DNA of 64,000 nucleotides from Scheffersomyces stipitis CBS 6054. Taxonomy: Eukaryota > Ascomycota > Pichiomycetes > Serinales > Debaryomycetaceae. The stretch spans positions 2,170,001-2,234,000 of the forward strand of contig NC_009068.1 in the NCBI RefSeq assembly GCF_000209165.1, in the 5' to 3' direction. Both the position numbers and the translations under genes were made by a program. Of this stretch, positions 5,080-13,936 are shown one piece after another (within the stretch, counting starts at the first letter, position 1; every line of letters begins with the position of its first letter). The notes beneath the pieces are model-generated. The model made no database searches. It was not told the DNA's origin and worked only from the letters and a program-made list of their open reading frames with translations.

Positions 5080-5958
5080 CTAAAGGGTAACTAGTATGCC
5101 GATAACTAGCAGACCGATGATGAAAGCAATGCCGGCTTGGCGTACTCTGCTGAAGTATCTACTGGTTGCAGAGTTTTGTTGAAACTTTGGCTCGTTCTTT
5201 AGAACCATCAAATCAATATTAGTTATTGAAGAGGTATCTGAAGTTCCAGAAGAATGCGACGAAGACGAAGAACTAATTGAGGATGAATCTGAAAATGTTT
5301 CTGAAAATGAAATTGTAGTAGAATAGTCGGAAGAAACTGAAGAAAATGCTGAAAAATATGAAGACGATGAAGAAGAACCTTTCAGTAGCGTAGATTCTAA
5401 TGGAAGCAGTGATGAAGATAGAGTAATAGCAGGCAAACCTGTAGATGTTCGGGTTCGCCAATCTACCGATCTGGATGTATCAACATTTTGGACAAGATTT
5501 GTGGTTGTTAAGGAGACAGAAGTTAAACCGTATGCTATCCAAGATACGCCGTAACATCCTGTTAGTCTCTGCGTTGTAATTGTGAACACCCCAGCGTTGG
5601 TAGGACATATCCCAAAGAAAAATTCGCTGCCGTCAATGTATGAATGCAATTGCAAAGTTCTGAGGTCGACCCTCCATTCTGTAGTATCTGGTTGTGTGCT
5701 AAGAGCCAATACGTAGTTCTTTATGACCACGTAATTGACTTCATTATCTACATTCAATAAGAACAACTTACCATTTCCAAGATAGAAAAATGGAAATATT
5801 AGTGGCCTCTGAGAAGAGGCTGTATTTGCATAAAAGTTGAGCTGTTGATCTAATCCAACCAGATATGTGTAGCCATTAGTTATAACAAATGGACTAAACA
5901 GGTATTCAGCAAGTGTTTGAGCAAACAAGAATTCTACGAAAATTAACAATTGGAGCAT
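5080..5958 (-). CDS. Predicted GPI-anchored secreted surface protein
   Basis: 292 residues with the plan of a yeast GPI cell-wall or plasma-membrane protein. There is an N-terminal signal peptide (MLQLLIFVEFLFAQTLAEY), then a folded-looking domain of about 150 residues rich in Tyr, Phe and Leu with cysteines in FGICPTNAG and LTGCYGVSW. A Ser-rich stalk follows at about residues 190-250, likely O-mannosylated, and a hydrophobic C-terminal tail ends the protein (GIAFIIGLLVIGILVTL). No catalytic motif is visible. The compact N-terminal domain recalls the Candida PGA30/31-type GPI proteins, but I cannot confirm that. The ATG at 5958 starts the signal peptide directly. The small-residue anchor site should lie just before the final hydrophobic block. 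Confidence 0.75.
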   Translation of the reverse strand: MLQLLIFVEFLFAQTLAEYLFSPFVITNGYTYLVGLDQQLNFYANTASSQRPLIFPFFYLGNGKLFLLNVDNEVNYVVIKNYVLALSTQPDTTEWRVDLRTLQLHSYIDGSEFFFGICPTNAGVFTITTQRLTGCYGVSWIAYGLTSVSLTTTNLVQNVDTSRSVDWRTRTSTGLPAITLSSSLLPLESTLLKGSSSSSSYFSAFSSVSSDYSTTISFSETFSDSSSISSSSSSHSSGTSDTSSITNIDLMVLKNEPKFQQNSATSRYFSRVRQAGIAFIIGLLVIGILVTL

Positions 5959-6436: not shown

Positions 6437-6721
6437 TGACGGGAAACCTGTATATGGGTAGGCCGGTTTTCCTTTTGGACTTAGAAATGGATTAATGGAT
6501 ATGGAGTTATATTAATCACTGAAGAACTATTTAAAATCTGTTTAAACTAGAGGGAATCCTCTGGGCTTTATATATTCTTCATCCTCATCTCATCTCTGTA
6601 GTTTGTTGCGTTATTCAACAAAAGAAATGTAGAATTTCTGTTTCGGATATTTATCGGATCCAATCCGAGGTTGGTCACCTCGGAAACCATTATTAGAGAT
6701 CCTGTATCTTATTTTCCATCA
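6437..6721 (-). repeat. 3' LTR of the retrotransposon (left copy)
   Basis: 285 bp. Plus-strand ends are TGACGG at the left and CCATCA at the right, an imperfect inverted pair with the canonical TG...CA termini. The left boundary is set by the point where identity with the right copy starts (6437 against 12282). The right boundary is set by the polypurine tract directly beside it. A rival right end at 6620, giving a TGTTG-type start, was considered and is less supported because no purine tract adjoins it. Confidence 0.8.
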
Positions 6722-6729
6722 CTCCCCTT
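6722..6729 (-). other. Polypurine tract
   Basis: On the minus strand the bases AAGGGGAG lie directly before the LTR start and overlap the last two bases of the pol stop codon TAA (6730-6728). This is the expected position for the plus-strand primer of reverse transcription. Confidence 0.7.
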
Positions 6730-9700
6730 AACGCTTTGTACGTGAATCAAATGTAGAAGCGTTTCTGACATTGGAAACTAGATGATCCCTAAGAGTAATA
6801 AATTGCGCTCTAGATAGCGCTTTAATAAACATGTCAGCCGTGTTTACTGATGTCTTGACATAGTCAAGTAGGATTTCTTTATCCTTAATCAATTGTCTCA
6901 ACAATTTGATATCGATGTCCACCATTCTCCTACTATGGGAGATATTTTCGTTTTTGCAATTGGCGATTACAGCTTGATTATCTTCATAGATTTGTACGCT
7001 TGACACTATGAATCCAAGTTCTCTTAAGATGTTCTTTATACGGATCGACGTCTCTGCAGTCAGCTTTAAAGCGACCAATTCGCAACTAGCAGAACTTGTA
7101 GTAATGTTATGTTGACGTTTAGTGGTCCAGCTAACCAAATGTCCGTTGAGATAAATGGCATTTCCAGTAATTGATCTTCTATCCTTCTCTGGAGCGAAGG
7201 AAGCATCTGTGTAAGCAACTATGTTAAAATCTAATTTCTTGTTTGATGATTGGTTGCTCTCATATTTTAATTCATAATCTATGTTCAGCTTGAGGTAACG
7301 AATGCAGTATAATAATTTCTGAAAATCATTTATATTTGGGTTGGCACCTTTGCTACCCAACTGATTGGCAGCAAAAGATATATCAGGACGAGTATTTCGA
7401 TTTGCCCAAAGCAATAATCCTACTCCCTTTTGATATAGCTCTTTACCCTTTGCATCCAATAATGTTTGGTTGTTTATCGGATTGTCCTCGATAAAGTGAT
7501 CTTTAACAGTGGTGGATGCATTATTGTACTTCGACTTGTCTTTGATCATTGGAATATACTTTCCATATGATTCTTCAAGTTTGAATTGCTTTACAATATT
7601 TTGTAAGTATTCTGTCTGGGACATAATGTAACCGTTCTCGGTCTTATGAAATTTTACCCCAAGGTATTCCTTGATTTCTTCAAGGTACTTCATGTCGAAA
7701 TGATTTTGTAGGTCTCGTTTGAATTCTTTAAGCATCCTTTCGCTTGATGACACCATGAATAAGTCATCAACATAAACAGCAATGATGATTATGTCACCTT
7801 TGTTCTTTTTGTGGAACAATCCTGAAGCGAATGATGATTCCTCAAAACCGAAGTTTTGAATAACCTTGAGTAATGTGTGGTACCATTCGTACCCACTTTG
7901 TCGCATACCATATATTGCCTTTTTAACCAACCAGCATTTATTCTTTGGCAATTCGTATCCTTTCGGTGGACGGATGTAGATTGGCTCATTGTTCGATAAT
8001 GGCGCGTTTAGATACGCAGATTCAATATCGAGCTGGTGGATAATATAATTGTTAGTGGTGGCAATAGAAACTAGTAATCTGATGGTCAATAGGTCTACAA
8101 CGGGGGATGATATTTTTGATGGATCGAAATCCCGGCCGGGTTGTTGTAGAAAACCTCTAACGACACATCTGCTTTTGTATTTAACGCCTTTTATTCCTCC
8201 ATCCTTAGATGTATGTACCCATCTGGTGGATATGGCTTTCCTGCCTTTCGGAATATCAACGACTTCAAAAACGTTCAATTTAATGAATTTGTCTATTTCA
8301 CGATCCATGGATTCTATCCAATTTTTATCGTTGTAATCAATGTTTTCGATAACAGCATTTATAACATTGATTGGTAAATCATCCGAGTCTTCTTCAATTT
8401 GATCGATCAATGAGAATAAGCAATGTGCACCTTCGATATTTGTACATACGTCAGTTGATCTAGACTCAATCAAACTGGCCATAAGGTTGATTGTGCTTAT
8501 ACTCAGGAAGTCTGGTGATGTTTTCCTCTGTCTTTTATTGTCGCCCCCTTCTGTATCAGTTTTAGTTTTAGCTGATACAGAATAGACGCTGCTCTTTTGG
8601 CCCGGATGCGTCTTTGTCCTTGTTTTAAGTGTCTTACTTTCCGGAGTAAAATTGGGTGACCGCTTTAATTTAACTGATGGTTCTGGTGTGAGTCCCTCTT
8701 GCATTCTTTGACGTTTCAAAGCTCGGACGTCTCTGTTTGAAGGTGCTTGAATCATCTCTGGCTCATGCTTGATAGTTGTGCTCTCCCCTTGATTGTCAAT
8801 CGGTTGAACAATGCCATGTTTCGTCTTGACGTTACCAGTGTCTTTAGACGATTTCGTATCTGAATTGAGTTCGGTAATTTCAATTGCAGCTGGGATGTGC
8901 TTATCATTTGCATTATCGCTTTTATTGTTATGATCTTTAACAATAATTTGCTTTGAGGCAGGATTTTGAGATTCTTTTAATGTTGCAACGGGTGCATCTT
9001 CATTAATGAGTTCATATTTGGTTTCATCAGCCTTCTGCTCTCTTTGAGTAGAAGTTATGCCTGAGTCGGATTTATAGCCCAGTGGAGTATCTCTCTGGAT
9101 ATCCTCTCCGGATACAGGAGCTACCTGTTTATTGACTGGGGTAGGTGTTCGTACGTTTGTCCCCCCCACTAATGTGGACGAATTAATTGCAGTGCTCGTG
9201 CTCTCTCTATGAGTCTTATCTGTAGTAGTAATAGGTTTTGGATGTTCAGGATTTGTCATCCAAGGAAATTTGTTAGTAACGTTCGTGTACACTTCGGGAT
9301 GTTTCTTGGCTAAGATCAGGAAAGAGGGTTGAGGATCAGTTGAATAATTATCCGTGGGCGACGGATCCCTCCTTGCTTCTGAAATACCACGGGTCATCAC
9401 GGCTGATTTTTCGTGGATGCCCGCTGATGTGGAAGGTACATTTTCCTGTCGAACGGATTCAAAAGTATCATAGTCATGGGCTTCTTGATTAAGTTTAAAT
9501 TGAGCAGCAGCGACTTGGGCATTCAAGGTCGCTTTAACTTCGTTCGCCTCCTGAATTTGAGAGAAATCAAGCGATTTGAAGTATGAGTTAATATGTGCCA
9601 TGGAACTCATGAACTTGACATTCACTGTCTGAATAACTGGGAAGTTTTTCGTACTGACGAGGATTTTATATGTGTAGTTGTCTTCGCAGAAACCAATAAA

Positions 9701-11032
9701 AGTACCAAAGAATGTCATCGGGTATTGCTTATTATTTGGATTAGCTGGTGCATTGGGTAGAGGAATATGCAATTTTTTAAATTCCTCTGGCGAAGATGCT
9801 TTAACTGACACGTCCAAGCCAAATTGAATATATGTCGGTCTGTATGCATCGAGCTTATTAAAGACTTCATAAGGAGTCCTACCTTTGAGAGCCTTGTTGG
9901 GCGTATGGTTCTTAATGTACAGCACATATTCAATGATGTGGTCAAAAAGACAAAGAACCTTGTCTGTGTAATTCGGAAATTGAAGGATAATCTTGTATAT
10001 ATTTCGCAAGATCGTACGGTTGTGGGATTCAGCAAGTCCATTCAATTCCGGAGAGTAGCTAGCAATCTTATCTCGTTTTATGCCAAGTTTGGCAAGCAGT
10101 TCGGTGTCAGGTAGTTCTTTGGCATTGTCTGCTCTAAAATGCGCTATCCTTTCTGGAAATCTATTGTTCCATATGTGCAAGAGAAGGAGAACATCATCCA
10201 TGACTTGCTTATGAGATGTAAAGATAAGTTCGGTAAATCGGGAGAAATGATCAATGAGTGTAGTGATAAAGTATTTTTTGTGGCCGATGAGGAAGGGTCC
10301 CATCGTGTCACTACTAACTCTTTCTAACCGACGTGTGGCAGGTCTTTGGGTGGTGTGGTTATGTGATGCTTGTCTAATGTTCACGGCGTGACATAGGCGA
10401 CATTCTTTCACCCTACGGATACTCTCTTCCGTATCAACTACCTTAATAAATCCCATTTTTGCAAGGGATTGTAAATTTGAAATTGCCATATGACTGCATT
10501 GTAGATGGTGATAAAACCAGTCTTGGGGGCCGTGTAGTTCGGCAACTTCAGCAGGAATATTATGTATTGTGGAATATTCCTCTTCAAAAAAATGAAGTGA
10601 TTCGATATTATTTTTGGCAGAAAGTTTAGAAATGAAAAGATTATTCTTTCTATTAGCAACTTTGAGCATGTGTTCACTATTGGCAATATAGGCTCCGTCG
10701 TCTGTGAGCACGGTTGTCCATCCTTGTTCAAGTAGTTGGCCAACTGATATGAGATTACAAGAGATTTCAGGGACGACCATAACGTTGGAGATAGATACCT
10801 TTGGGTCTAGATGTATGTCAAGCGTACCTTTTGCAATAGCTCGTACGGTTCTTCCGTCAGCAACACGAAATGATGTACCTTGGCCTTTAGGCTCATAGGT
10901 TATATCATGCAATAATTTTGTGGAATTAACACACGTTCTTGAACAACCTGAATCGTATAGAAATAGTACATTTGACAGCAGTGGTTCGTCACCTAAGTAA
11001 AAGATTTGACGATTTGGGTGACCACCAAACCA
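6728..11032 (-). CDS. Retrotransposon Pol polyprotein (protease, integrase, RT, RNase H)
   Basis: An open frame of 1434 codons that begins directly after the gag TAA and is in the same frame as gag; there is no ATG at its head, so it should be made as Gag-Pol. The aspartic protease motif DSG (in LYDSGCSRT) lies about 26 codons after the stop, and the copia-type NLISVGQLLEQGW follows. The integrase zinc motif is HHLQCSHM...CRLC; the catalytic core has SSDTMGPF, FRADNAKEL and ELNGLAESHN for the D, D and E. A long low-complexity spacer of several hundred residues follows. RT starts near WIESMDREIDKF and has QLDIESAYLNAPL and the catalytic YVDDLFMVS. RNase H has YTDASFA, SCELVAL and EDNQAVI. No inactivating change is visible. 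Confidence 0.93.
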   Translation of the reverse strand, partial: WFGGHPNRQIFYLGDEPLLSNVLFLYDSGCSRTCVNSTKLLHDITYEPKGQGTSFRVADGRTVRAIAKGTLDIHLDPKVSISNVMVVPEISCNLISVGQLLEQGWTTVLTDDGAYIANSEHMLKVANRKNNLFISKLSAKNNIESLHFFEEEYSTIHNIPAEVAELHGPQDWFYHHLQCSHMAISNLQSLAKMGFIKVVDTEESIRRVKECRLCHAVNIRQASHNHTTQRPATRRLERVSSDTMGPFLIGHKKYFITTLIDHFSRFTELIFTSHKQVMDDVLLLLHIWNNRFPERIAHFRADNAKELPDTELLAKLGIKRDKIASYSPELNGLAESHNRTILRNIYKIILQFPNYTDKVLCLFDHIIEYVLYIKNHTPNKALKGRTPYEVFNKLDAYRPTYIQFGLDVSVKASSPEEFKKLHIPLPNAPANPNNKQYPMTFFGTFIGFCEDNYTYKILVSTKNFPVIQTVNVKFMSSMAHINSYFKSLDFSQIQEANEVKATLNAQVAAAQFKLNQEAHDYDTFESVRQENVPSTSAGIHEKSAVMTRGISEARRDPSPTDNYSTDPQPSFLILAKKHPEVYTNVTNKFPWMTNPEHPKPITTTDKTHRESTSTAINSSTLVGGTNVRTPTPVNKQVAPVSGEDIQRDTPLGYKSDSGITSTQREQKADETKYELINEDAPVATLKESQNPASKQIIVKDHNNKSDNANDKHIPAAIEITELNSDTKSSKDTGNVKTKHGIVQPIDNQGESTTIKHEPEMIQAPSNRDVRALKRQRMQEGLTPEPSVKLKRSPNFTPESKTLKTRTKTHPGQKSSVYSVSAKTKTDTEGGDNKRQRKTSPDFLSISTINLMASLIESRSTDVCTNIEGAHCLFSLIDQIEEDSDDLPINVINAVIENIDYNDKNWIESMDREIDKFIKLNVFEVVDIPKGRKAISTRWVHTSKDGGIKGVKYKSRCVVRGFLQQPGRDFDPSKISSPVVDLLTIRLLVSIATTNNYIIHQLDIESAYLNAPLSNNEPIYIRPPKGYELPKNKCWLVKKAIYGMRQSGYEWYHTLLKVIQNFGFEESSFASGLFHKKNKGDIIIIAVYVDDLFMVSSSERMLKEFKRDLQNHFDMKYLEEIKEYLGVKFHKTENGYIMSQTEYLQNIVKQFKLEESYGKYIPMIKDKSKYNNASTTVKDHFIEDNPINNQTLLDAKGKELYQKGVGLLLWANRNTRPDISFAANQLGSKGANPNINDFQKLLYCIRYLKLNIDYELKYESNQSSNKKLDFNIVAYTDASFAPEKDRRSITGNAIYLNGHLVSWTTKRQHNITTSSASCELVALKLTAETSIRIKNILRELGFIVSSVQIYEDNQAVIANCKNENISHSRRMVDIDIKLLRQLIKDKEILLDYVKTSVNTADMFIKALSRAQFITLRDHLVSNVRNASTFDSRTKR

Positions 11033-11035
11033 TTA
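10988..11035 (-). promoter_or_regulatory. Candidate stop-codon readthrough site with pseudoknot
   Basis: Gag ends in TAA (11035-11033) and pol continues in the same frame. One base after the stop, GGTTTGG (11031-11025) can pair with CCAAATC (11017-11011), seven pairs including one G-U. The 7-base loop contains GTCAC (11022-11018), which is complementary to GTGAC at 10992-10988, after an 18-base linker. Together this is an H-type pseudoknot. Pseudoknots after the stop drive readthrough in murine retroviruses and are reported for Tca2. The 1-base spacer is shorter than the several bases usual in those cases, so the fold may differ in detail. Confidence 0.5.
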
Positions 11036-12238
11036 ATTGTTGGCGAAGTTCTTATTTCCACTGTTCTTTTGTGATTCAGTGTAATTTTGGTTCTTTTTGT
11101 ATCCATGTGTATGACTTTTCTTATTTTGAAGTTGTTTATCCGACGAATTCAGAGGCATATCAATAAAATTTGAATCGGATCTCATTTTAAGAAATGTATG
11201 TCTGAGTGGAGCTGCAACCTTTGATGAATCATTTTTAAAAGCTTGGTATTGTTCATTTAGTTGTCTACCTAAAGCTTTGACATTTGATTCGTTACTGTTG
11301 TTGACATATATGAAGTAGGCAATAGCATCGCGGGAGTTTAATGTTTTTAAGAACTGGGTAATCTGACGATCGGTAACGGAAGTTATACGTACAAGATGAT
11401 TCTCAATATCTGAAGTATTGGTGAGTCTTTCGATCTTTTTAAACTTCTTGATATATTCAATGATCTGTGCTGAACAATCATTACCATCGTGAGTTTCGAT
11501 GTATCCGATGATTTTCTTCAATGTAACATTTCCAGCTTCGTTTTCAAAAGCTGTTGCTGTGTTTTCGCTTAGGATACTTGCTATATTTTCGGCCACTAAT
11601 TTATAGAAGTATACCTTATTGGCTGTACTATGACCGTCAAGAAAAACCGTATCTTTTGAGGTTGATTTGAGGTTAAAGTCATTCAATACGATCTCCTTTA
11701 ATGGCGGAATCCGAGTGTAGACGCGTTTGAGTGTGGTCTTATACTTGGCTATAGTCTCAGGGCTTGTATCCAATTCTGGCAACTTTTGAAGTTGGTCTTC
11801 ATATTTATCAATTAGTCTCCATACCGACCTTCTAATTTCTTCTTTAGAATTCGAAGTACTATATCCCTTACCTCTTTCAAGGGTCTCGGATATAGGAGTG
11901 TTAATATTTTCCAGCAGGTCTTCGTCAGAATCCAGCGATGACTCCGAATCTGATTGGGACTCTGATCCATTACCAGCATTTGTAGCATCAGCCTTTTCCT
12001 TACCCTTTGGTTCCTTGTTTGGAACTTCTCCGAGATTAAGCTTGTTAATTAAGTTCGTAAGGTTTTTGTTTACCTCATTGAACCTTTCGTCGATTTCGTT
12101 GAATTTTTTATCAAACTCACCCTTCAGGACAGGGACTAATGATTCATCAGTCAAGGCCTTGGGTTCAGTTGGAGATTGACAATCAACGAATTCATTTTCG
12201 AACTTGTCGTAAACTTCAGCAGCTAAAGTGGAGGACAT
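11033..12238 (-). CDS. Retrotransposon Gag protein
   Basis: 401 residues starting at an ATG 43 bp inside the 5' LTR and ending at TAA (11035-11033). It has an acidic, Lys/Glu-rich N-terminal region with predicted coiled-coil character around EVNKNLTNLINKLNL, an acidic Ser/Asp patch (SQSDSESSLDSDEDLL), then a helical capsid-like part and a basic C-terminal tail rich in Lys, His and Asn. No CCHC zinc knuckle is visible, so nucleic-acid binding probably relies on the basic tail. It forms the virus-like particle shell. The stop is in frame with pol. Confidence 0.88.
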   Translation of the reverse strand: MSSTLAAEVYDKFENEFVDCQSPTEPKALTDESLVPVLKGEFDKKFNEIDERFNEVNKNLTNLINKLNLGEVPNKEPKGKEKADATNAGNGSESQSDSESSLDSDEDLLENINTPISETLERGKGYSTSNSKEEIRRSVWRLIDKYEDQLQKLPELDTSPETIAKYKTTLKRVYTRIPPLKEIVLNDFNLKSTSKDTVFLDGHSTANKVYFYKLVAENIASILSENTATAFENEAGNVTLKKIIGYIETHDGNDCSAQIIEYIKKFKKIERLTNTSDIENHLVRITSVTDRQITQFLKTLNSRDAIAYFIYVNNSNESNVKALGRQLNEQYQAFKNDSSKVAAPLRHTFLKMRSDSNFIDMPLNSSDKQLQNKKSHTHGYKKNQNYTESQKNSGNKNFANN

Positions 12239-12281: not shown

Positions 12282-12446
12282 TGACGGGAAACCTGTATAT
12301 GGGTAGGCCGGTTTTCCTTTTGGACTTAGAAATGGATTAATGGATATGGAGTTATATTAATCACTGAAGAACTATTTAAAATCTGTTTAAACTAGAGGGA
12401 ATCCTCTGGGCTTTATATATTCTTCATCCTCATCTCATCTCTGTAG
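12282..12446 (-). repeat. 5' LTR of the retrotransposon (right copy, truncated by gap)
   Basis: 165 bp identical by eye to 6437-6601. It stops at the first N of the gap, so about 120 bp of the expected 285 are not present. Any protein frame read through this piece into the gap is spurious. Confidence 0.93.
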
Positions 12447-12546
12447 NNNNNNNNNNNNNNNNNNNNNNNNNNNNNNNNNNNNNNNNNNNNNNNNNNNNNN
12501 NNNNNNNNNNNNNNNNNNNNNNNNNNNNNNNNNNNNNNNNNNNNNN
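12447..12546. other. Assembly gap (100 N)
   Basis: Exactly 100 undetermined bases, the usual placeholder for a gap of unknown size. It lies between an LTR and a coding minisatellite, both repeat classes that break assemblies. It hides the rest of the LTR and the C-terminal part of the adhesin-like gene. Confidence 0.97.
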
Positions 12547-12671: not shown

Positions 12672-13936
12672 TCTGAAACACAACTGGCATGTGTCATTGG
12701 TAGCTCGACGCTTACCGTAAGAGTCTCTTGATCGATAGTAATATCACCTGTTATAGTAGCTTCCTCATCAATGTCGGTACAAGTAAAATAAGTAGTAGTG
12801 GCAGTTGGAACACATCTTTCGTGATCTGAGGATAACCAGAGGTCAACAGAAGCTGTCTCATCACCGAACAGAGTTGGATATGCAACAGTAACATCAGTTC
12901 CCTCAGTGCCACACATAGTCAGTGTAACAGTCATGGTGGCGCTACAACTTGCATGTGTCAATGGGAGCTCGACGCTTACCGTAAGAGTCTCTTGATCGAT
13001 AGTAATATCACCTGTGTTAGAAACTTCCTCATCAATGTCGGTACATGTAAAATAAGTAGTAGTGGCAGTTGGAACACATCTTTCGTGATCTGAGGATAAC
13101 CAGAGGTCAACAGAAGCTGTCTCATCACCGAACAGAGTTGGATATGCAACAGTAACATCAGTTCCCTCAGTTCCACACATAGTCAGTGTAACAGTTTGGG
13201 CAGGAGTACAACTTTCATGGCCGTTTGACAAAAATACAGTATTCGTACGTGTTGATTGATCTAATGTAATGGTACCGGATTCAGTAACATCACTAACAGA
13301 ATCGGTACATGTCAGAATCGTGGTGGTCGTAGTAGGACTACACCTACCTGAGGTACCCGTTCCTATACCAATCTGAACAGTAGTAGTTTGGCCAAATGAA
13401 GAAATAGTGGTTGTAGCTCCAGTGCTTGAAGACACACACGAGTATTCTGTAACGGCACCAAGAGCGCAAGAACTGTGCGAGGTTCCAAATTTATAAGTAA
13501 TAGTAGCGGTTGCTGCGCTGGTAGGAGAAGGCGTAACAATTCTTGTTGAAGAAGAACCTGTACCCGAACACGTATTAACCATCACTGTAGTAGCAGCCAA
13601 GCAACGGTATGTGTTTGATGGTAGGTATACAGTATTAGTCCGAGTACGAGTAGTTGTACCTGTACTGGCAGTTCCTGTGACAGTTGAATACGAAGCCACT
13701 GTATTACATGACGTGGTAGTGGTAGTATATAAGTTGGATCTACATGAAGCGTGATATGAATACAATGAAACATGAACAGTGAGTGTGCTCTGACCGGGAG
13801 TAGTAGGTTGTGTTACAGTATGACTTCCAAGAAGAATACCTTGTGTTCCGCACAATGTTATAGTAGTAGCAGGAAGATATGTGCCAGCTGCGAGGCCAGC
13901 CATATATAGGATTGCATATAGTAATATGATCAACAT
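12547..13936 (-). CDS. Adhesin-like cell-wall protein, 3' end lost in gap
   Basis: At least 463 residues from the ATG at 13936. The N-terminus is a signal peptide (MLIILLYAILYMAGLAAGTYLP). The rest is Thr/Ser-rich with regularly spaced cysteines and recurring HASC or HERC and TxTLTMCGTEG-type motifs. Two nearly identical 88-residue repeats (CGTEGTDVTVAYPTLFGDE...) occupy the middle, with more diverged copies before them. It ends at the gap in a run of PVDPTD hexapeptides, a typical stalk. This is the plan of a yeast adhesin or flocculin, in which repeats set reach and a GPI tail follows, but no ligand domain is recognised and the C-terminus is not visible. The minus-strand retrotransposon lies on the other side of the gap. 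Confidence 0.75.
12670..13197 (-). repeat. Two tandem 264-bp coding repeats in the adhesin gene
   Basis: The segments match with a period of 264 bp (for example AGCTCGACG at 12702 and 12966) and differ at few sites. Each encodes 88 residues. The high similarity suggests recent duplication or gene conversion. Exact edges are approximate. Confidence 0.85.

Follow-up and report, generated by a model that had tools for sequence, protein, structure and literature searches.

A Ty1/copia element (Pseudoviridae) lies on the minus strand of the window, by which we mean the whole stretch of 64,000 nucleotides that was analysed. LTRs are present, and integrase precedes reverse transcriptase in pol (Table 1). 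The primer-binding site is complementary to an internal stretch of tRNA-Arg(UCU); genes for this tRNA were found at its complement (L054, L062, and L071), and the identical site is present in those elements of families A, C, and D (defined below) that were examined. A Pfam search with the gag-like ORF gave no match. In pol, the Pfam matches follow the copia order, and the DSG motif, which we take to be an aspartic-protease-like active-site motif, falls within the Pol_BBD match. The 3′ LTR is 100% identical over 285–287 nt to the 5′ LTRs of five other family A copies (L001, L002, L003, L005/L060, and L006/L061), is 99.7% identical over 289 nt to the 5′ LTR of L007/L056, and matches the 5′ LTR of the window element itself (L063) across its 165 nt. 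The target-site duplication and the exact insertion point are unreadable because of the 100-N assembly gap.

Table 1 Features of the window element, with the arms of its predicted pseudoknot (positions in the window).
Feature	Position	Strand	Remarks
Assembly gap, 100 N	12447–12546		Removes the remainder of the 5′ LTR
5′ LTR, 3′ part only	12282–12446	−	165 nt identical to the 3′ LTR
Primer-binding site GATTAGAAGTCAAA	12268–12281	−	Complementary to an internal stretch of tRNA-Arg(UCU)
Gag-like ORF, 401 aa	11033–12238	−	ATG at 12238; last sense codon ends at 11036; ends with UAA
In-frame UAA between gag and pol	11033–11035	−	
Predicted stem 1, 5′ arm (GGUUUGG)	11025–11031	−	1 nt past the stop
Predicted stem 1, 3′ arm (CCAAAUC)	11011–11017	−	Seven pairs with the 5′ arm, one of them G-U
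Predicted stem 2, 5′ arm (GUCAC)	11018–11022	−	Also in the inner stem of the nested fold +7 to +51
Predicted stem 2, 3′ arm (GUGAC)	10988–10992	−	Five pairs with the 5′ arm
Pol ORF, 1434 codons	6728–11032	−	Open from 11032; own TAA at 6730–6728
DSG motif	10946–10954	−	Pol codons 27–29
Pol_BBD	Pol residues 25–104		Pfam match
Integrase core (rve)	Pol residues 234–328		Pfam match below the curated cut-off
RVT_2	Pol residues 920–1164		Pfam match
Polypurine tract AAGGGGAG	6722–6729	−	Overlaps the pol stop
3′ LTR	6437–6721	−	285 bp, TG...CA

The gap also removes the end of a cell-wall-like ORF (from 13936 downwards) that is rich in Thr and carries VDPTDP repeats, and inside which a 264-nt unit is repeated in tandem (12680–13207; two copies, 94% identical). 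On the other side, a 292-aa ORF (5080–5958, minus strand) with a hydrophobic start, a Ser-rich stretch, and a hydrophobic C-terminus lies a short way downstream of the 3′ LTR in the same orientation, its ATG being about 480 bp past the end of the element.

Reading of the ORFs on the minus strand agrees with the arrangement given in the preliminary description. Gag stops at TAA, pol continues in that frame with the next codon, the DSG motif follows about 26 codons past the stop, and no in-frame ATG is available for a separate pol start ahead of it, the first Met being codon 85 (10780). Comparison of the N-terminal part of pol with the genome gave 39 matches, 30 of them assigned loci, and the junction was read in 18 of these. 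The 18 fall into families A–D, which we count as three: A (with its sister B), C, and D (with D1 and D2). Exactly one in-frame TAA separates an open gag from an open pol in all 18 junctions (A, seven; B, one; C, six; D1, three; D2, one). Gag is open for at least 362 codons back to the previous stop in every case, and the pol frame is listed as 1391–1530 aa in 17 and as 855 aa in L019. Pol identity to the window element is 82% for B, 37% for C, and 28–29% for D over the aligned parts, and 89, 38, and 32%, respectively, over the first 293 residues. The junction of the D2 element (L047, L028; pol frame of 1527 aa) lies at G000:C1:2238271–2238491, about 4 kb past the right end of the window. Two relics, L009 (AAC TAA AGG) and L051 (CAA TAA GGC), keep the TAA as well and, because they are decayed, are excluded from all joint statistics.

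The use of UAA at the junction is not forced by host usage, since the stops of 15 of the 18 listed ORFs (the two ORFs of the element and one ORF cut by the gap being excluded) are mixed: five TAA, six TGA, and four TAG. Judged by these junctions, the UAA is a maintained gag/pol stop, neither a sequencing error nor the mark of a dead copy. The earlier reading of UAA as the in-frame stop thus stands, but it is not peculiar to the window copy, three families using UAA. A larger family (L029–L039) has listed open frames of 1796–1951 aa, in which gag and pol seemingly form one frame; of the 12 loci outside families A–D, L029 (1796 aa) and L032 (1919 aa) were translated around the junction region and have no stop there. 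One group in the genome thus appears to have no stop to bypass, while three families have one. The larger family possibly corresponds to the Tps5 elements of PMC8546629.

The stretch from the UAA to the first Met is, to judge from substitutions between sister copies, under protein selection. For the pol codons in between, dN/dS is 0.068/0.377 (~0.18; 84 codons) for A versus B and 0.096/0.635 (~0.15; 77 codons) for D1 versus D2. DSG is found at pol codon 27 (A and B), 30 (C), and 37 (D1 and D2), ahead of the first Met in all five, which is codon 85 (A and B), 182 (C), and 78 (D1 and D2). Selection past the stop and a DSG motif ahead of any Met therefore point to in-frame passage of the UAA or to a non-AUG start just after it, and the UAA is very probably bypassed in frame. 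Synonymous sites at the junction show no exceptional conservation; 20-codon windows there rank only 93–170 of 1183, and strong synonymous constraint at the junction was rejected accordingly. One ATG overlaps the stop (TAATG, 11033–11031), but it opens another frame that ends after 14 codons. The overlap is present in sister B and absent from families C and D and from relic L009. Reinitiation at TAATG was rejected, the ATG being in the wrong frame and absent from C and D.

The preliminary description had placed a possible pseudoknot directly 3′ of the stop in the window element. All 12 pairs of its two stems can form as named (Table 1), and shifting a stem partner by 1–3 nt leaves only 3–7 of them. 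When the stems may lie no more than 1 nt apart, the pseudoknot score of the junction is matched at none of the 1249 other codon positions in the locus and by 1.7% of 300 dinucleotide shuffles. Ordinary folding of the 60 and 120 nt after the stop gives z values of −0.71 and +0.31, respectively, neither unusually stable. The 1-nt spacer, already recognized as a weakness, is a real one. With such a spacer (A and B), stem 1 would have to open when the UAA is in the A site, as it would then lie inside the ribosome. When a spacer of 5–9 nt was imposed on the window element, no pseudoknot was found. The pseudoknot stands as an above-chance prediction, with an awkward spacer and with unremarkable ordinary folds over 60 and 120 nt.

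Each of the three families has a predicted H-type pseudoknot directly after the UAA, formed from different arms. In family C, the predicted stem 1 pairs +7 to +12 with +20 to +25 and stem 2 pairs +14 to +19 with +36 to +41. In family D, stem 1 pairs +7 to +11 with +22 to +26 and stem 2 pairs +13 to +18 with +34 to +39; D1 may add a seventh pair to stem 2, which D2 does without. The spacer between the stop and the predicted stem 1 is 1 nt in A and B and 6 nt in C and D. Sister B differs from A at three stem bases and retains every pair through G-U, and between D1 and D2 two stem bases have changed, with all 11 core pairs retained. Hence all five changes between intact sisters, in core stems of 12 and 11 pairs, leave a standard pair; all are one-sided changes involving G-U, and none is fully compensatory. 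In relic L009, two of the 12 pairs are broken, one in each stem, and its best knot is a different and weaker one (−10.5). Conservation of the stems among related copies, named earlier as a requirement, is seen in sister B and is incomplete in L009, and families C and D use other arms. MAFFT on the five junctions gave no structural alignment and hence no covariance model.

The first scan, in which the stems could be no more than 1 nt apart, yielded no knot for D1 and a weak one for D2, matched at 12.2% of codon positions. We raised this limit to 3 nt once D1 had come out empty, which counts against the figures that follow. With the 3-nt limit, the pseudoknot score of the junction is in the top 0.35% (A), 1.6% (B), 1.7% (C), 0.6% (D1), and 2.5% (D2) of 3150 offsets, a ranking that includes the junction's own neighbouring offsets. 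Scored jointly for A, C, and D1, the six best of the 3150 offsets are −2 to +3, with +1 ranking fourth; for B, C, and D2, +1 ranks eighth, behind a site in gag near −930. With a spacer of 5–9 nt imposed, C, D1, and D2 are in the top 0.9, 0.3, and 1.4%, whereas A has no knot and B a weak one (−7.3; 9.9%). The joint Fisher p for A+C+D1 and B+C+D2, respectively, is 1.3e-5 (with the D1 p floored at 1/1500) and 0.0013 against dinucleotide shuffles, 9.2e-6 and 0.0018 against codon order shuffles, and 0.0014 and 0.063 against synonymous-codon shuffles, the families being related and so not fully independent trials. Taken singly against the synonymous-codon null, B gives 0.24 and D2 0.28. Jointly, the pseudoknots predicted 3′ of the junction stop exceed chance expectation. 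The gag site near −930 (near position 11963 of the window; same offset in L018, L020, L025, and L028) also has a high joint structure score, almost equal to that of the junction and above it for B+C+D2; its signal possibly reflects chance or composition.

A nested stem is the alternative structure. The stretch from +7 to +51 forms a good fold in each of the five lineages, matched at 3.0, 0.7, 0.6, 0.5, and 3.3% of codon positions, and as a 45-nt window it ranks first (A+C+D1) and third (B+C+D2) of 3150. The corresponding joint ranks are 7 and 4 at 36 nt and 16 and 19 at 54 nt, and lie between 29 and 162 for windows of 60–90 nt. The nested fold is matched by 0.5–7.5% of dinucleotide shuffles and by 2.7–23.9% of synonymous nulls. 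Since the pseudoknot score omits loop penalties, the knot is not shown to be more stable than the nested fold, at −13.5 kcal/mol. We set aside the idea that only a simple nested stem forms, and keep the pseudoknot as the first choice and the nested stem as its alternative.

We consider UAA readthrough stimulated by a 3′ RNA structure the best explanation of the junction, and a fairly probable one. Gag would be made from the first frame up to the UAA, while some ribosomes would decode the UAA as an amino acid and go on in frame, giving a low-frequency Gag-Pol fusion. Termination would be hindered, and a near-cognate tRNA favoured, by the RNA structure that directly follows the UAA; this is most likely an H-type pseudoknot, possibly in exchange with the nested stem. 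The frequency of readthrough would set the ratio of Gag to Gag-Pol. We infer both the readthrough itself and its stimulation by structure. The short contexts of known leaky stops (CAR-YYA of TMV and TGA-CT of fission yeast) are absent from the A–D junctions, and none of the hexamers at +1 to +6 after the UAA (UGGUUU, AGCUCC, GGUCAA, and GGUUUA) is known to be leaky. UAA is usually held to be the tightest stop codon; if its readthrough here were confirmed, local RNA structure would be able to overcome it. A structure-driven signal is compatible with UAA, because changing the MuLV stop to UAA lowers readthrough only 1.7- to 3.1-fold and leaves it substantial (PMC4178896). We regard it as an even chance that this one genome holds three divergent families with a natural UAA recoding stop, in place of UGA or UAG, and pseudoknots of their own made from different arms, which would amount to structure-driven ochre readthrough in a yeast that was either kept or re-evolved across the families. 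The three families and their sister copies share one layout and offer specific, testable arms, in a host yeast that is studied for biofuel production.

The UAA could instead be passed by a non-canonical bypass, being read through with the main signal remote or supplied by a host factor and the local structure playing a minor part. Forbes et al. (2007; PMC2194720) arrived at such a bypass for Tca2 when their reporter test proved negative, and the weak synonymous constraint at the junction and the second structured site near −930 in the joint scans would fit it. The rank of the junction for local structure, first or near first of 3150 offsets in short windows and across three families, argues against it, and we consider it rather unlikely. 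Separate synthesis of Pol, driven by an internal promoter or begun at a non-AUG codon past the stop, recalls the weak promoter activity of the Tca2 junction (PMC2194720); pol expression in Tca2, however, tracked the LTR promoter and not the junction promoter (PMC2194720), and here selection starts right past the UAA and the DSG motif precedes any Met, which makes this explanation quite improbable.

Splicing, which is used by Drosophila copia (PMC2194720), could remove the UAA from a minority of transcripts and yield a gag-pol mRNA. Consistent with this, a pyrimidine-rich YAG ends 40 nt past the stop in A and B, and donor-like sequences are present in A (GTACGT, −357), D2 (GTACGT, −139), and B (GTATGT, −271). 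However, no donor-plus-branch arrangement is common to the families: of 11 donor hexamers, GTACGT alone occurs in two families, at differing places, C lacks all 11, and A and C each lack all 12 branch patterns from −600 to +240. We therefore hold splicing to be very improbable. A disabling mutation or sequencing error as the source of the stop is hardly credible: no point in favour of this was found, and it is opposed by the TAA in 18 of 18 junctions of three families, by near-identical LTRs and selection past the stop, and by a strain comparison suggesting that S. stipitis LTR elements are active (PMC8546629). Structure-stimulated readthrough thus remains our preferred reading.

Three LTR families of S. 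stipitis, Ava, Bea, and Caia, have been described from chromosome arms, each with a Pol ORF and a Lap ORF proposed to be Gag (PMC8546629). Families A, C, and D are very probably these three, with the order unassigned. The main text of that paper presents Ava, Bea, and Caia as having two ORFs, rather than an in-frame UAA or a pseudoknot, and the term "stop codon" is absent from it (PMC8546629). A protein search with pol gave 28 matches, of which the six best are pol relatives at 30–38% (the best, 38%, from Candida subhashii), with no junction DNA among them. An IMG/VR pattern search gave 56 matches and no confirmed relative among them, and a search of the literature on gag-pol junction stops, especially UAA, revealed no yeast element with UAA in the titles and abstract openings of the matches listed.

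The fission yeast LTR elements Tj1, Tosmo1-3, and Tcry1 likewise have one in-frame stop between gag and pol (PMC10085805), and in Tj1 the stop is reported to be essential (PMC10085805). These are Ty3/gypsy elements with a conserved leaky GAA-TGA-CT (PMC10085805), whereas the elements here have UAA and a predicted structure instead. In MuLV, an H-type pseudoknot lies directly 3′ of the in-frame gag stop (PMC4178896), as is predicted for the families here. Loop 3 of MuLV is 18 nt, as in the form first proposed for A, and loop 1 is 1 nt, as in C and D (PMC4178896). MuLV differs in having UAG, an 8-nt spacer, and a measured readthrough of 7–9% (PMC4178896), compared with UAA and a proposed readthrough here; its spacer of about 8 nt is approached more closely by the 6 nt of C and D than by the 1 nt of A and B.

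Candida albicans Tca2 (pCal), compared here by its published description and not by sequence alignment, is like the window element a Ty1/copia element with gag and pol in one frame, a single stop between them, and a predicted 3′ pseudoknot. The primer-binding site of Tca2 is also on an internal stretch of tRNA-Arg(UCU), a mark of Tca2-like elements that is found here. The LTRs are of similar length (280 bp in Tca2, PMC7175516; 285 bp in the window element). The preliminary description had cited the UGA and pseudoknot of Tca2 as a known case of readthrough, which the reporter test does not support: 300 nt of the Tca2 junction, including both, gave 0.3% readthrough in S. cerevisiae, equal to a control stop, and Forbes et al. 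(2007) concluded that Tca2 needs a non-canonical bypass (PMC2194720). As Tca2 is the closest studied case that came to light, this result counts against readthrough at the junctions here. According to a 2020 review, the mechanism of the Tca2 bypass was still to be determined (PMC7175516). The pseudoknot loop of Tca2 contains a 0-frame AUG (PMC2194720), whereas the first in-frame ATG of pol here comes no earlier than codon 78. The stop is UGA in Tca2 and UAA here, followed in A by UGGUUUGG, and the spacer is 8 nt and purine-rich in Tca2, compared with 1 nt in A and B and 6 nt in C and D; the combination of UGA and such a spacer may not be a defining trait of Tca2-like elements.
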